Shown: positions 2,093 through 9,333 of the stretch, one piece after another
How the letters are laid out: every line of letters starts with the position of its first letter
How positions within the stretch are numbered: the first letter of the stretch is position 1
Origin: Lentisphaeria bacterium
Lineage (GTDB): Bacteria > Verrucomicrobiota > Lentisphaeria > Victivallales > UBA1829
Length of the DNA: 44,922 nucleotides
Assembly (NCBI GenBank): GCA_017646015.1
Contig: JAGCNI010000095.1
Location: 1 to 44,922, forward strand
Reading direction: 5' to 3'
Program-made: the position numbers and the translations under genes
The notes under the pieces: model-generated
What the model saw: the letters and a program-made list of their open reading frames with translations, nothing else
Database searches by the model: none
What the model was told of the DNA's origin: nothing

Positions 2093-3352
2093 ATGAGCGT
2101 GTTGAACAGAATAATCAATATTCTTGTTTTGCTTGCCGCAATTGCCGCAGTCGTATTTTCTTATATGCTTTTCAGCAAAAGAGAAAAACTTACTGACGGT
2201 TGGGACAAAATGGCAAAGGCGATCAATACTACTGCCAGAACATTGGATGACAACTCTGCATCCGGAACAACTGCAGCACGGGATCTGCCCGTTGATAAAC
2301 TCAAACATCAGAATTATGACCAGTTGGGTCAGCTTCTGCCCAAACTGAATGATAATGCAGAGAAAATCGTGAAGCAGAGAAACGATCTTGCCGCTTCCAT
2401 TCAGAATGTCGCAAATACGCTCAGTATTACCGGAATCAAGGACGAAAATCTCAAAAATATTGCTTCCTACAAAGATCAGGAACGTAATTTTGTCAATAAA
2501 GTCCGTCAGTTCCGCACTGTTCGTGACAGCGTTTCTGCCGGATATGCAGGAACCGCCGCAAAACTCGGTGGAAGAGTCAGTGCTTCTGAGTTCAATAACT
2601 CCACTACTTATGGTGCAGCCATCCGCAAAGTCAATGCCGCTGCCGATGAACTTATCGCACGCAGAAATGCTTATGCCAACTATCTTACTCAGATCGCCCG
2701 GGCGATGGGAGTCAAAGCTCCCAATCTCAGCAGCAAAGGATATCAGGCTGAATTGGCTAAGACCCTCAATGAATTCAAAAAGAAACAGCGTGAACACGCC
2801 ACCACACGCAGTCTTCTCGCTCGTGAAAAAAGCAAATCTGCAAGCTTGACCAAACAGGTTGCAAGCAGAAATAATACGATCAAATCTCAGGTCGCCAACA
2901 TTCAGAAACAGAAAAACCGTATTGATGAACTCAACCGTATCCTCAATAAAGACGGTTCTCTGCCGCTGCCGGAAAAACTTCTCACCGGAAGCGAACCTGA
3001 ATGCTACAAATACGTCAAAGGCAAAATTGAATTTGTCGATAAAGAATTCGGTTTCGTGACCATCAATATCGGCAGCAGCTTCGTCTTCAAACAGCGTTAT
3101 GGTATCAAAGACAACTATGTTTCTTTCCCGCTTCAGGCAGGCAAACAGCTCTCTGTGGCCCGCAATCTGGAAGGTGATGATCCGGTCGGTCCCACATTCG
3201 TTGGCAAACTGCTTGTTTCCAAAGTTGACAAAAACTCTGCTGTCTGTAATCTCGTGACCGGTTCTCCGGTTGACTATCAGGTTGGCGATACCGTTTTCTT
3301 CTCTGAAGATGATATCGTGGACGCTCTCTCCGGTAAAGCTGCTAAAAAATAA
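2093..3352 (+). CDS. Membrane-anchored coiled-coil protein with C-terminal beta domain (unknown function)
   Basis: I do not recognise a named family. The chosen ATG at 2093 has AGGAG at 2079-2083 with 9-base spacing; an in-frame GTG at 2087 is too close to it. Residues about 5-25 form one hydrophobic segment, probably an uncleaved membrane anchor with most of the chain in the periplasm. A long helical region follows, strongly coiled-coil near residues 225-300 (KSxSLTKQVASRN, then Gln/Lys/Asn-rich). The last 110 residues look like a beta domain (GKIEFVDKEFGFVTINIG, then VGKLLVSKV and YQVGDTVFF) of the kind seen in envelope proteins of PVC bacteria. Two tiny ORFs follow closely. A structural or scaffold role in the envelope is inference only. 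Confidence 0.85.
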   Translation: MSVLNRIINILVLLAAIAAVVFSYMLFSKREKLTDGWDKMAKAINTTARTLDDNSASGTTAARDLPVDKLKHQNYDQLGQLLPKLNDNAEKIVKQRNDLAASIQNVANTLSITGIKDENLKNIASYKDQERNFVNKVRQFRTVRDSVSAGYAGTAAKLGGRVSASEFNNSTTYGAAIRKVNAAADELIARRNAYANYLTQIARAMGVKAPNLSSKGYQAELAKTLNEFKKKQREHATTRSLLAREKSKSASLTKQVASRNNTIKSQVANIQKQKNRIDELNRILNKDGSLPLPEKLLTGSEPECYKYVKGKIEFVDKEFGFVTINIGSSFVFKQRYGIKDNYVSFPLQAGKQLSVARNLEGDDPVGPTFVGKLLVSKVDKNSAVCNLVTGSPVDYQVGDTVFFSEDDIVDALSGKAAKK

Positions 3353-3367
3353 GCAAGGAGGTATGCA

Positions 3368-3475
3368 ATGTTTTCATCTCCGATCTTTACTGTGACATCC
3401 ATTCTGACATTTCTGGCTTTGGTGGCTGTGTTGGTTCTCCAGGCGTTGGAAATGAAATGCTATGGAATGTTTTAA
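3368..3475 (+). CDS. 35-residue single-pass membrane peptide (hypothetical)
   Basis: A short ORF starts at ATG 3368 after a near-perfect Shine-Dalgarno AAGGAGG at 3355-3361 with 6-base spacing, 15 bases after the upstream stop codon. It encodes 35 residues, of which about 20 (IFTVTSILTFLALVAVLVL) form a single membrane helix, with a short tail ending in KCYGMF. The strong ribosome-binding site and its place between the coiled-coil protein and a small lipoprotein-like ORF argue that it is translated. It overlaps the next ORF by 14 bases in another frame. No function can be assigned. Confidence 0.6.
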   Translation: MFSSPIFTVTSILTFLALVAVLVLQALEMKCYGMF

Positions 3476-3662
3476 GAACATTTCTTCTGTAATCCGACAG
3501 GAAGTGCGGCAACCCCGCATCTTCCTGTTTTTTCTTATCTTCATCTTTCTGTTTTTCTGTTGTTCGTGTACAGAGTATGAGCGCAGAGGGGTGAATCCCC
3601 GTCCATTCAATGAGCCCACCGCCTGGGAAAACAATCCGTATGGAGATATATTCCAGAACTGA
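3462..3662 (+). CDS. Small lipoprotein-like envelope protein (hypothetical)
   Basis: This 66-residue ORF overlaps the end of the 35-residue peptide by 14 bases, so its translation is probably coupled. After a short basic N-terminus it has a very hydrophobic stretch (FLFFLIFIFLFF) ending in CCSC. The last cysteine, preceded by Ser, could be the lipidated residue, though Cys at -3 is not a classical lipobox. The mature part is short and polar and includes NPRPFNEPTAWE. It lies in the same strand and cluster as the coiled-coil membrane protein. Function unknown; membrane attachment is inferred from the sequence. Confidence 0.55.
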   Translation: MECFKNISSVIRQEVRQPRIFLFFLIFIFLFFCCSCTEYERRGVNPRPFNEPTAWENNPYGDIFQN

Positions 3663-3713: not shown

Positions 3714-4580
3714 ATGGCTAAGATTCAAATTCTCGGCAGTGCTGCAGCGGAAGGGATTCCTGCTGCGTTTTGTAACTGCAGAGTCTGCACAGAAGCGTGG
3801 AAAAATGGCGGAAAAGATATTCGTATGCGTACAGCATACAAATTGAATGATCAGGTCCGCATTGATTTCGGTCCGGATTCTCTGGCGCAGGAATATAAAT
3901 ATCAGCTGCATTCAGAAAGACTCAAACATCTTTTCATCACCCACAGTCATGAAGATCATTTTTATCTTGATCTTTTGAATTACCGTATGCCCGGTTTTTC
4001 GGTTGTTGAAGAAGATAACATTCTCAATATTTACGGCAATCCCGGAGTGATCCGTGCGATCCAGCGTTTTTTCTGGGAAAAGAGCTATGACCGTTTCAAC
4101 GGGGACTATAAAAAATTCCGTCTTAATCCTGTGACTCTGGAACCTTTCCAACCGGTGGTTCTGGAAGATCAGGATATGGAATTTTATCCGGTCAAAGCCG
4201 ATCACATGATCGGTGTCGGCACAGAGATCCCCATGTGTTATATTTTCCGTATCGGCAGCTCCTGGGGGATGATCGCCAATGACAGCGGTTATTTCCGTGA
4301 AGAAACCTGGGCGTTTCTGGAAAAACGGAAATTCAAATTGGATCTTATGATCAATGATTGTACCGGAGGACTGCTGGATATTGAACGCGGACACATGAGC
4401 GGAAAATATGTGCTTGATACAAAAGCCCGTCTGGAAAAGATTGGCAGTGTTACCGCAGAGACCCAATATTACATCAATCATTTCTCCCACAATGGTCAGG
4501 CGACCCATACTGAATTGGAAGCCAAATTCAATCCGTATGGGATCCAAGTTGCTTACGATGGACTGGAAATAGAATTCTGA
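3714..4580 (+). CDS. Metallo-beta-lactamase-fold hydrolase, PhnP-like
   Basis: A 288-residue metallo-hydrolase of the RNase Z/PhnP type, probably a cytoplasmic phosphodiesterase; the substrate is unknown. The N-terminus has the glycine-rich ILGSAAAEGIP strand followed by CNCRVC, a cysteine cluster like the structural zinc site of PhnP. The catalytic motif is THSHEDH (about residues 76-82), fitting HxHxDH with two metal ions. Later ligands are plausible in KADHMIG and ANDSG, with a final histidine in INHFSH. The start has AAGAGGAG at 3696-3703. There is no signal peptide and no phn gene nearby, so a C-P lyase role is not supported. It ends at a bidirectional terminator. Confidence 0.82.
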   Translation: MAKIQILGSAAAEGIPAAFCNCRVCTEAWKNGGKDIRMRTAYKLNDQVRIDFGPDSLAQEYKYQLHSERLKHLFITHSHEDHFYLDLLNYRMPGFSVVEEDNILNIYGNPGVIRAIQRFFWEKSYDRFNGDYKKFRLNPVTLEPFQPVVLEDQDMEFYPVKADHMIGVGTEIPMCYIFRIGSSWGMIANDSGYFREETWAFLEKRKFKLDLMINDCTGGLLDIERGHMSGKYVLDTKARLEKIGSVTAETQYYINHFSHNGQATHTELEAKFNPYGIQVAYDGLEIEF

Positions 4581-6501: not shown

Positions 6502-9333
6502 TTATTTTACTTTGACTGCAATGATTCTATCTACGAACACTGCATTTTCTTTTGTTGAATCTTTCACATAAGCAGCTCCTGTCAGCTTACAGGAAATATA
6601 CAGATCGTATTTTCCAGCCGGCAGTTTTTCATATAAGTCGGAAATTCTCATTGCCCATGAACGGTGCCCCCACAAAGTCTGTTTTCCCGTATCCGTTTTG
6701 GAAACAGTTCCGATTTTATAGAGCTGATATTTTTCATTTGCAGGGATCTTGTCCGGAGTAATCTCAAAACGGATCACATTCGATTTTTTTGCCTGATCGT
6801 AAATTCCGAACAACATATTCTGTGTTGCGTGATTGTAACGGCTTTTTGAATTGAATTCTCCGAGTTTGATTGCGTTACCATTGACCGCTTCCGGATCTTT
6901 TGTAAGCAATCTCGGATTGATTTGAGTTGCGGGGATCTGGATGATCTCTTTTCCTTTCAGTTCATCCGGCACCGGCAGCGTGGCTGGTACGGCAGGTTTG
7001 TTGTGAGTGCGGATCCCGCGTTTGACAGCCACCAGTTTATCCACATAGACTGCATTTTCTTTTGTTGAATTCTTAACATAAGCGGGTCCAGTCAGTTTGC
7101 AGGAGATATAAATTTCATATTCTCTGTCCGCATCGGCAGAATTCCAAAGCGGGTTATAGAGTTTGGATAAGGACATTTTCCATGAACGATGTCCCCAGAA
7201 ATGTTGTTTTTCAAATCCATTTGGCTGAGTGATTCCAATTTTATAGAGATGATATTTTTCATCCTGATGGATATCAGCGGGCTGAATGATCCGTTTGATC
7301 TCATATTTTTTCCGGGTGCGGTTATAAATACCGAATTCCATGGGTTGTGCAGCATGATTGAAACGACTTCCGGTAGGGAATTCTCCCAGTTTGAAGGCTT
7401 TTCCGTAAGTTGCGTCCGGATCATCGACAATGTAACGGACATCTTCCATCAAAGCAGAGATCTGGATGATATCCAATTTTTCCATTCCGGGGGGGATCGG
7501 GATCGGATTTTTGAGCATCCGCAGATTGTCAAGATCGCGAGAAAGAGCTTTTTTCACCTCTTTTGAGTTTGGATGATTGCTGAAAAAATAACGTTTATAA
7601 GCCAGATGCATATTCTGTTCCAAACGTTCACAGAGGAATTTATGGTCCATACCTGTTTTGGATGCAACCTGTTTCCAGAGATGTGCAGCGGCAAAATCCA
7701 CCGGTAATCTTTCGATACGGACATTCTCCAGTCGTTCCGGATCATTTTTAACTTTTTCCTCTGCCCGGTCAAGCAATGTATTGATTGTGGTGAAGAACTC
7801 CGTGTCAAAACAATTTCTTGACTGAAGCGGTGTCATGCAAATGGTTCCGGGGATCGCATCCAGGCGTTTTTTCAGATAAGCGGAATAGGCTTTCATCTCT
7901 TTTTCCGCGGGACCATACTGATACGCAAAGAATTCATCAATGAGTTTTTCTGCATTCTGTTCCGGATCATCCATCATTTTCAGCACAAGATATACATGCA
8001 GGTCATGAAATGCCCGCGGGTTGACCATTCCTTTACCTCTGTATTCAGTTTCGACAAACATCTTGATGGCACCGAGTTTCTGATAGAAACGCATGTCTTC
8101 AGCGATATACCAGTAGCAGGCTTGCGGCCATGCGAATGCTTCTGTCATGGCATAGAGACGGTGATAGCACCAGATTGCTTTATGTTTTGCGATTTTATCC
8201 CATTCCTTGAACCATTTGACCAGCTGAGCGTTGACAGGATGTGAAAGCGGACGGATCGTATCATAATAGGTCTCACCATCGCTTAGGAATGCGAATTGGA
8301 TCATTACATTATCCCGCGGTTTGATATTTTTCGGTGGAGCGATTGTCCGGTGATAAGCAAAAGTCTGGAAGATATATTCCGGGAATGCCGCTGCAATGTC
8401 ATTGATGAATTCCAGTTGAGCTCCTGCAATCGTTCCATATTTTTTGACCAGAGCTTTGCAGGGCGCACACTCACAATGAGAAGTGTTATCATTCTGAGAA
8501 ATATCGATCCATCTCAGCCATGATTTTTCATCCAGATTATTTTTCCGGATGAACTCCTTTTCTTTTCTGATCCATTTGGCAACTTCCTGTTTTGCAAGTT
8601 TCCGGAATTCCTTATTGGCATAACATAGCTGTCCCGGACCGACACCATCCAGAGCCCGGATCCGACGCCCATCAGCTGTCATCGGGAGCAGATCTTTCCG
8701 GTTTTCAGGAATAGCCGCAGTCAGTTTATGGAATGTATGCGCCCCTCCGATTCCACGGGAATGATAGAGGGATGGCCAGTGACCAACAGCACTGTTCGAA
8801 TTGCTTTTGTTCATACTGGCAAAGAAATTTGTCAGTTTTCCCGGAGTGGTTTCCACAATATTACGCAGCAATGCAAATGCCGGTTTCCGGCGGAATTCCT
8901 GATTGTCAGGAACAGTGATGGATTTGACTTTCGGAATTTTGTGATTGACAGGGGTAAACCAGCGGACACCACCGAATTTTTCGAGAAATTCTGCGACACC
9001 GTAATGAACTCCACGGGGGAAACCGCCGCTGATCCATACATTTTTACCATCGGAACGGATACTCCATTCCTCCTGATCCAGTTTTTTATTTTCAGTGATG
9101 AAGATCGCCTGTCCTTTTCCAGGAAAATTGGTTTGATCTATGATTTCCGGACGTTTTCCGAACATTTTACCCAGGTGATCTGCCAAGATGTTACAACTTT
9201 GTATCGCTGGTTTCCCATTCAGATTTCCTTTTACGATTTTGAATTCAGGAGTGATCTCCACTGCATGAGTGTACAACGATATTGCAAGAAGATTGCAAAG
9301 TGTGAAGAGATGAGAAAAAAATTTATTTTTCAT
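6502..9333 (-). CDS. Secreted DUF4838 glycosidase-like protein with duplicated C-terminal domain
   Basis: A 943-residue secreted protein. An N-terminal signal peptide ends near ...SLYTHA (residue 24). Residues about 25-145 resemble the alpha/beta N-terminal domain common before alpha-glucuronidase-type barrels (GGFPRGVHYGVAEFLEKFGGVRWFTP segment at about 103-128). The DUF4838 barrel follows, with HTFHKL (199-204), DISQNDNTS (277-285) and a cysteine motif HCECAPC (C287, C289, C292). The C-terminus has two copies of a domain of about 150 residues (about 619-770 and 792-943). DUF4838 proteins are predicted glycoside hydrolases, but the substrate is not known. The gene lies 24 bases after the prepilin-like gene and 22 before the PIG-L gene. 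AAGGTG precedes the start. Confidence 0.88.
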   Translation of the reverse strand: MKNKFFSHLFTLCNLLAISLYTHAVEITPEFKIVKGNLNGKPAIQSCNILADHLGKMFGKRPEIIDQTNFPGKGQAIFITENKKLDQEEWSIRSDGKNVWISGGFPRGVHYGVAEFLEKFGGVRWFTPVNHKIPKVKSITVPDNQEFRRKPAFALLRNIVETTPGKLTNFFASMNKSNSNSAVGHWPSLYHSRGIGGAHTFHKLTAAIPENRKDLLPMTADGRRIRALDGVGPGQLCYANKEFRKLAKQEVAKWIRKEKEFIRKNNLDEKSWLRWIDISQNDNTSHCECAPCKALVKKYGTIAGAQLEFINDIAAAFPEYIFQTFAYHRTIAPPKNIKPRDNVMIQFAFLSDGETYYDTIRPLSHPVNAQLVKWFKEWDKIAKHKAIWCYHRLYAMTEAFAWPQACYWYIAEDMRFYQKLGAIKMFVETEYRGKGMVNPRAFHDLHVYLVLKMMDDPEQNAEKLIDEFFAYQYGPAEKEMKAYSAYLKKRLDAIPGTICMTPLQSRNCFDTEFFTTINTLLDRAEEKVKNDPERLENVRIERLPVDFAAAHLWKQVASKTGMDHKFLCERLEQNMHLAYKRYFFSNHPNSKEVKKALSRDLDNLRMLKNPIPIPPGMEKLDIIQISALMEDVRYIVDDPDATYGKAFKLGEFPTGSRFNHAAQPMEFGIYNRTRKKYEIKRIIQPADIHQDEKYHLYKIGITQPNGFEKQHFWGHRSWKMSLSKLYNPLWNSADADREYEIYISCKLTGPAYVKNSTKENAVYVDKLVAVKRGIRTHNKPAVPATLPVPDELKGKEIIQIPATQINPRLLTKDPEAVNGNAIKLGEFNSKSRYNHATQNMLFGIYDQAKKSNVIRFEITPDKIPANEKYQLYKIGTVSKTDTGKQTLWGHRSWAMRISDLYEKLPAGKYDLYISCKLTGAAYVKDSTKENAVFVDRIIAVKVK
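6505..7479 (-). repeat. Tandem duplication encoding two C-terminal domains
   Basis: About 6505-6962 and 7023-7479 encode homologous modules of about 150 residues. Both begin with EIIQI or DIIQI, share DP[ED]A..G.A.KLGEF and R[FY]NHA.Q.M.FGIY, then EKY.LYKIG, WGHRSW and SCKLTG.AYVK.STKENAV.VD. The similarity persists in the DNA, for example around 6540-6600 against 7050-7110, so the duplication may be fairly recent or under conversion. A diverged third copy ends the other DUF4838 protein (32434-32883). Confidence 0.85.

Follow-up and report, generated by a model that had tools for sequence, protein, structure and literature searches.

Organization of the locus

The window, which is the whole stretch of DNA analysed here (44,922 nucleotides), is one contig of a 2.5-Mb genome that is 78.8% complete. 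After valS and rsmD it carries, on one strand and in this order, a gene for a coiled-coil membrane protein (CC), a micro-ORF, a lipoprotein ORF and an MBL-fold gene; the valS gene is presumed to be such from reading its ORF. The CC, micro-ORF and lipoprotein reading frames, which together form the module considered here, all lie where a preliminary description of this DNA had placed them. CC occupies positions 2093–3352 of the plus strand (ATG at 2093, stop at 3352) and encodes a protein of 419 residues with a predicted N-terminal transmembrane (TM) helix, a coiled coil and a C-terminal beta-barrel domain (about residues 306–410, positions 3008–3322, plus strand). The micro-ORF (3368–3475, plus strand) encodes a peptide of 35 residues with a single TM helix, and the lipoprotein ORF (3462–3662, plus strand) is annotated with 66 residues, its start being uncertain. 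The MBL-fold hydrolase (3714–4580) begins 51 bp past the lipoprotein and has PhnP/RNase Z-like superfamily matches. Farther along the window, the minus strand carries a secreted-looking ORF of 943 residues (6502–9333).

The promoter announced ahead of CC in the preliminary description was recovered as a sigma-70-like site, TTGACA-17-TAATAT, at positions 2014–2042 of the plus strand, matching 10 of the 12 consensus bases and identified by consensus match only. Seven promoter-like sites were counted between positions 1950 and 3800, compared with 3.1 +/- 1.8 in shuffled sequences. A site with at least 9/12 consensus bases was present within 140 bp upstream of CC at 23 of 30 loci, the window included, in a best-of scan run without a null. 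The ribosome-binding site attributed to the micro-ORF was also found, as a strong Shine-Dalgarno sequence, AAGGAGGT, read at positions 3355–3362 of the plus strand, and AGGAG-type sites lie at the same place in many relatives.

Coding constraint on the micro-ORF

Summed over six congeneric pairs (Nei-Gojobori), the micro-ORF has a pN/pS of 0.158 in frame, with 113.4 synonymous differences over 151.2 sites and 56.6 non-synonymous differences over 478.8 sites; two of the pairs come from one genus, so that the six are not fully independent. The other two frames of the same DNA give pN/pS values of 1.32 and 2.87. Across 19 aligned rows the product keeps a single TM helix followed by Q-x-x-E-x-x-x-Y, with M1, E28 and Y32 invariant, and the E and Y are invariant again in an 18-row alignment that includes distant families. 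Lack of conservation of the micro-ORF frames in related genomes, set by the preliminary description as its refuting result, was looked for; the frames were found to be conserved, with the low pN/pS given above and with CC upstream in every one of the 71 matches in the window's order. Judged from these substitution patterns, the micro-ORF is a real coding gene under purifying selection. Its short length would fit an open frame arisen by chance within a non-functional set, but the difference between in-frame and out-of-frame pN/pS and the order-wide conservation refute this reading, to which we assign a negligible probability. Because its frame is conserved over an order and is under purifying selection, the micro-ORF lies far beyond chance expectation. 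Scans of the window proteins and of far relatives placed neither the micro-ORF nor the lipoprotein in a Pfam family, and nothing curated was found for them in NCBIfam.

The lipoprotein

The lipoprotein starts with a hydrophobic N-terminal signal, followed by a lipobox cysteine that is invariant in 25/25 alignment rows. In the window this presumably lipidated cysteine is codon 36 (3567–3569, plus strand), and the lipobox is slightly atypical, with a Cys at -3. The alignments suggest a mature part of some 30 residues that carries a single conserved motif. This motif is P-F-N-E-P-T-A-W-E in the window (3603–3629, plus strand) and P-W-N-x-P-Q-x-W-E in most of the remaining phylum; its P, N, W and E columns are invariant over the 25 rows, and tails such as ESDLPWNTPQPWEGSP are found at distant loci. 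The 14-base overlap with the micro-ORF noted in the preliminary description is true of the window (3462–3475) and is shared with one congener (locus L002), but it is not conserved among relatives: in another (L003) and in most other relatives read, the lipoprotein ORF begins after the micro-ORF. Neither the annotated start nor the overlap can for this reason be taken as a conserved feature. Lipoproteins with a PWNTP..WE tail and no adjoining CC gene were observed at five loci of families f16 and f26 (L132, L133, L134, L135 and L136). The f16 and f26 genomes displayed as unmatched had no CC-domain match in the phylum profile search.

Distribution and synteny in the phylum

Matches to CC were found in 57/61 genomes, the window's own included, and its named relatives belong mostly to Lentisphaerae/Victivallales metagenome bins, which makes the phylum Verrucomicrobiota as defined by GTDB. 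Among 288 sampled genomes of this phylum, an order-level profile of the micro-ORF matched 103 and a broader profile 131. Within the window's order, the micro-ORF was detected in 71/76 genomes, the other five having no match at that threshold. CC, counted as upstream when on the same strand and within -60 to 700 bp of the micro-ORF, lies directly upstream in 71/71 of these order matches (among 105 matches listed), and the lipoprotein lies downstream in 68 of the 71. Beyond the order, and again among the matches listed, CC precedes the micro-ORF in 9/11 cases in the rest of the class and in 15/23 elsewhere in the phylum.

Since many weak CC matches may reflect the coiled coil only, a profile of the CC C-terminal domain was built; it matched 249/288 genomes and 136/152 genera (E<=1e-4). 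The lipoprotein profile matched 251/288 genomes and 146/152 genera (E<=1e-3). Both profiles contain sequences from the sample, and their figures are to be read as recall and not as independent tests. Directly upstream of 48 of the 92 non-order lipoprotein matches listed is a listed CC domain. The remaining 44 comprise 43 in genomes without CC among the matches listed and one in a genome (G220) with CC on another contig; at least one of the 43 genomes (G199) has a CC-like gene directly upstream (L137). The order CC, (micro-ORF), lipoprotein is kept by distant families at the loci read. A loose regular-expression scan of 40 far loci returned no lipoprotein candidate in 21, and a second scan found a candidate at two of these 21 (L153 and L155), results that are not to be taken as counts. 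Among 11 further loci scanned, a lipoprotein-like ORF was present at four (L188, L190, L192 and L196), and three others (L187, L189 and L191) had a CC-like gene and yielded no such ORF. In some families (loci L113, L114, L130 and L159) two CC-type genes stand in tandem before the lipoprotein region, a duplication of the rod gene.

Surrounding genes are less constant. Upstream of the module, rsmD occurs in the window and in 5/14 named loci, and the MBL gene occurs downstream in the window and in 2/14 named loci only; no gene recurs widely enough around the module to provide a functional clue. Altogether, the three genes almost certainly constitute a real, conserved envelope module.

Size and architecture of the lipoprotein, whose mature part carries a single conserved motif, also suit another reading, in which a short LptM-like tail docks into an outer-membrane protein and aids its assembly, and the link to CC is one of co-expression only. 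LptM carries one conserved tail motif, different from that of the module lipoprotein. Both are very small lipoproteins, LptM being located in the outer membrane (PMC10567701), but the module lipoprotein has another gene partner and no detected Pfam family. The f16 and f26 loci, with a lipoprotein and no CC, are consistent with this LptM-like role. Against it, CC is adjacent in 48 of the 49 non-order genomes with both lipoprotein and CC domain among the matches listed, and the succession of the two genes is retained in distant families. We consider this reading unlikely.

Fold and possible kinship of the CC protein

The AF2 model of full-length CC (pLDDT 77.8) predicts a long N-terminal helix, a coiled coil and a confident C-terminal barrel, and the barrel domain modelled alone reached a pLDDT of 84.9. 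The C-terminal beta domain proposed in the preliminary description is thus backed by predicted structures. Its nearest solved structures are those of FlgT, 8z5n (Z 11.5, rmsd 2.8) and 3w1e (Z 10.8, rmsd 3.4), over 89 residues each, followed by the N-terminal barrels of F1-ATPase at Z 9.5 and below. The predicted barrel thus resembles the fold of the FlgT C-terminal domain (PF16538), which as the top structural match might place CC in a flagellar H-ring-like part. FlgP, another component of this ring, is an outer-membrane lipoprotein, and FlgT, to our knowledge, is without the TM and coiled-coil part of CC. In Vibrio, the H-ring is described as periplasmic and as involving FlgO and FlgP together with FlgT (PMC7693769). 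A flagellar role is largely refuted by distribution: CC is present in all of 16 genomes, but flagellin in only 4/16, and the window's own genome (78.8% complete) is among those without. CC also shows no sequence match over cut-off, FlgT_C exceeding it in 0/10 genomes tested and the best single CC member reaching E 0.0016, below the cut-off. The flagellar reading is accordingly held to be very improbable.

In its succession of TM helix, coiled coil and beta-barrel, the modelled CC has the layout of MreC (PF04085), and the barrel profiles show a weak, tentative similarity. Compared with MreC of the same group, the CC domain profile gave an hhalign probability of 80.8% over 83 columns that are partly coiled coil, in one pairwise comparison, and the full-length profile gave only 2.4%. 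Controls consisted of 28 profiles, one of which, the CC family itself, was set aside; the 27 unrelated neighbour-family profiles reached a maximum of 1.1%. Two single CC members had weak, sub-threshold matches to MreC in NCBIfam (E 0.0063 and 0.0025), and the CC domain profile weakly matched 2j5u (MreC) among PDB sequences (E 0.17). MreC is absent from the structural top 50 of the CC barrel, an absence that does not exclude kinship. Besides the sub-threshold FlgT_C and MreC matches, Pfam and NCBIfam searches with CC of the window and of far relatives returned generic coiled-coil matches only, and PDB sequences matched by the full-length CC profile were coiled coils. At the level of profiles, the similarity of CC to MreC thus appears weak, above that of the controls.

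In an alternative reading, CC would serve next to true MreC as a further morphogenesis scaffold of the MreC type, one that organises wall synthesis or division, and the small proteins would modulate it and not tether membranes. The shared layout, the hhalign value relative to its controls and the weak NCBIfam and PDB matches all favour such a role. Yet a true MreC is encoded elsewhere in 15/16 genomes, the window's own included (contig C38), and the window CC has no match to PF04085 at E<=1 (15 families were listed, MreC not among them). Neither mreB nor mreD adjoins CC in the window, where valS, rsmD and the MBL gene are the neighbours. CC further differs from MreC in that its barrel-like domain is single and spans roughly 105 residues, its coil is longer, and it falls below Pfam detection. 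A scaffold of this type seems to us rather unlikely.

Relatives of the micro-ORF outside the locus

In several lineages CC is followed directly by the lipoprotein, with no micro-ORF in the gap. Some of these genomes encode elsewhere a longer single-TM protein whose N-terminus is rich in Lys and which closes with a similar pattern, LQ..E..[FY]Y. These longer, unlinked proteins are read, from sequence similarity, as probable members of the micro-ORF family, many of the matches being weak (E 2e-11 to 3e-3). Longer single-TM proteins with the C-terminal motif of the micro-ORF were seen at loci L175 and L179, and also at L171, L174, L177, L178, L182 and L184. Absence from the gap in several lineages, together with the longer unlinked relative in some, means that the micro-ORF cannot be obligatory at the locus. 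The longer proteins sit beside genes of unrelated kinds, which hints at a departure of the micro-protein family from the operon in certain lineages. In these longer members the segment ahead of the TM helix is rich in Lys, which suggests an N-in/C-out orientation. From their N-terminal sequences, the neighbours of the unlinked relatives are taken to be a divergent tolQ (tolQRAB-like), tatC-tsaD, sucD and an rRNA methyltransferase. A shared neighbourhood was considered as a clue to function and rejected: the neighbouring genes differ, and no function follows from them.

A possible trans-envelope tether

The reading favoured here, tentatively and with confidence somewhat short of even, is that the module forms a trans-envelope tether in which the barrel of the CC rod binds the lipoprotein tail, with the micro-protein as membrane partner. 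The N-terminal helix of CC would anchor the protein in the inner membrane, and the coiled-coil rod would cross the periplasm and end in the MreC/FlgT-C-like barrel. Lipidated on its cysteine, the lipoprotein would be held in the outer membrane, a location assumed over the inner membrane, and would offer its P-x-N...WE tail to the barrel; rod and tail would then tether the two membranes or keep them in register. The micro-ORF product, oriented N-in and C-out, may pack on the TM helix of CC through its Q..E...Y face and could act as an assembly or regulatory subunit. The preliminary description pointed out that gene sets as compact as this are often those of envelope complexes, and the three products here would make up one such complex.

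This tether is favoured because the micro-ORF is under purifying selection and because CC and the lipoprotein occur in most genomes of the phylum sample and, where both were listed, are nearly always adjacent, while other neighbours vary. The shape of the CC model, its FlgT-nearest barrel and its MreC-like profile match argue in the same direction. Counted against it are the f16 and f26 lipoproteins without an adjoining CC and the lineages in which the micro-ORF is missing, as well as the nature of the MreC match, which is one pairwise comparison including some coiled coil and is not reproduced at full length. In a broader form, which we regard as doubtful, most of the phylum would possess a dedicated tether, in which a rod descended from MreC catches the approximately 30-residue tail of an outer-membrane lipoprotein, the TM microprotein being encoded in the operon or, elsewhere, having moved away and gained a cytoplasmic tail.

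AcrZ is a single-TM microprotein of the same type as CydX. Like these peptides, the micro-ORF encodes a TM peptide of about 35–40 residues beside a membrane-protein gene; unlike them, it has no sequence family match and carries its own Q..E...Y motif. CydX is described as such a microprotein (PMC4325964). A conserved PVC protein is the subject of another study (PMC3444138). Among the open-access papers listed, no title or abstract describes the module. As a gene set of the cell envelope it is apparently uncharacterised, and two of its three parts are shared by most of the phylum. Kept by most of the phylum, with no curated family for its three proteins, the set is a strong candidate for phylum-specific basic envelope biology. 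It also includes a gene of fewer than 40 residues with clear coding constraint, and its short motifs, Q..E...Y and P-x-N...WE, are testable for binding.
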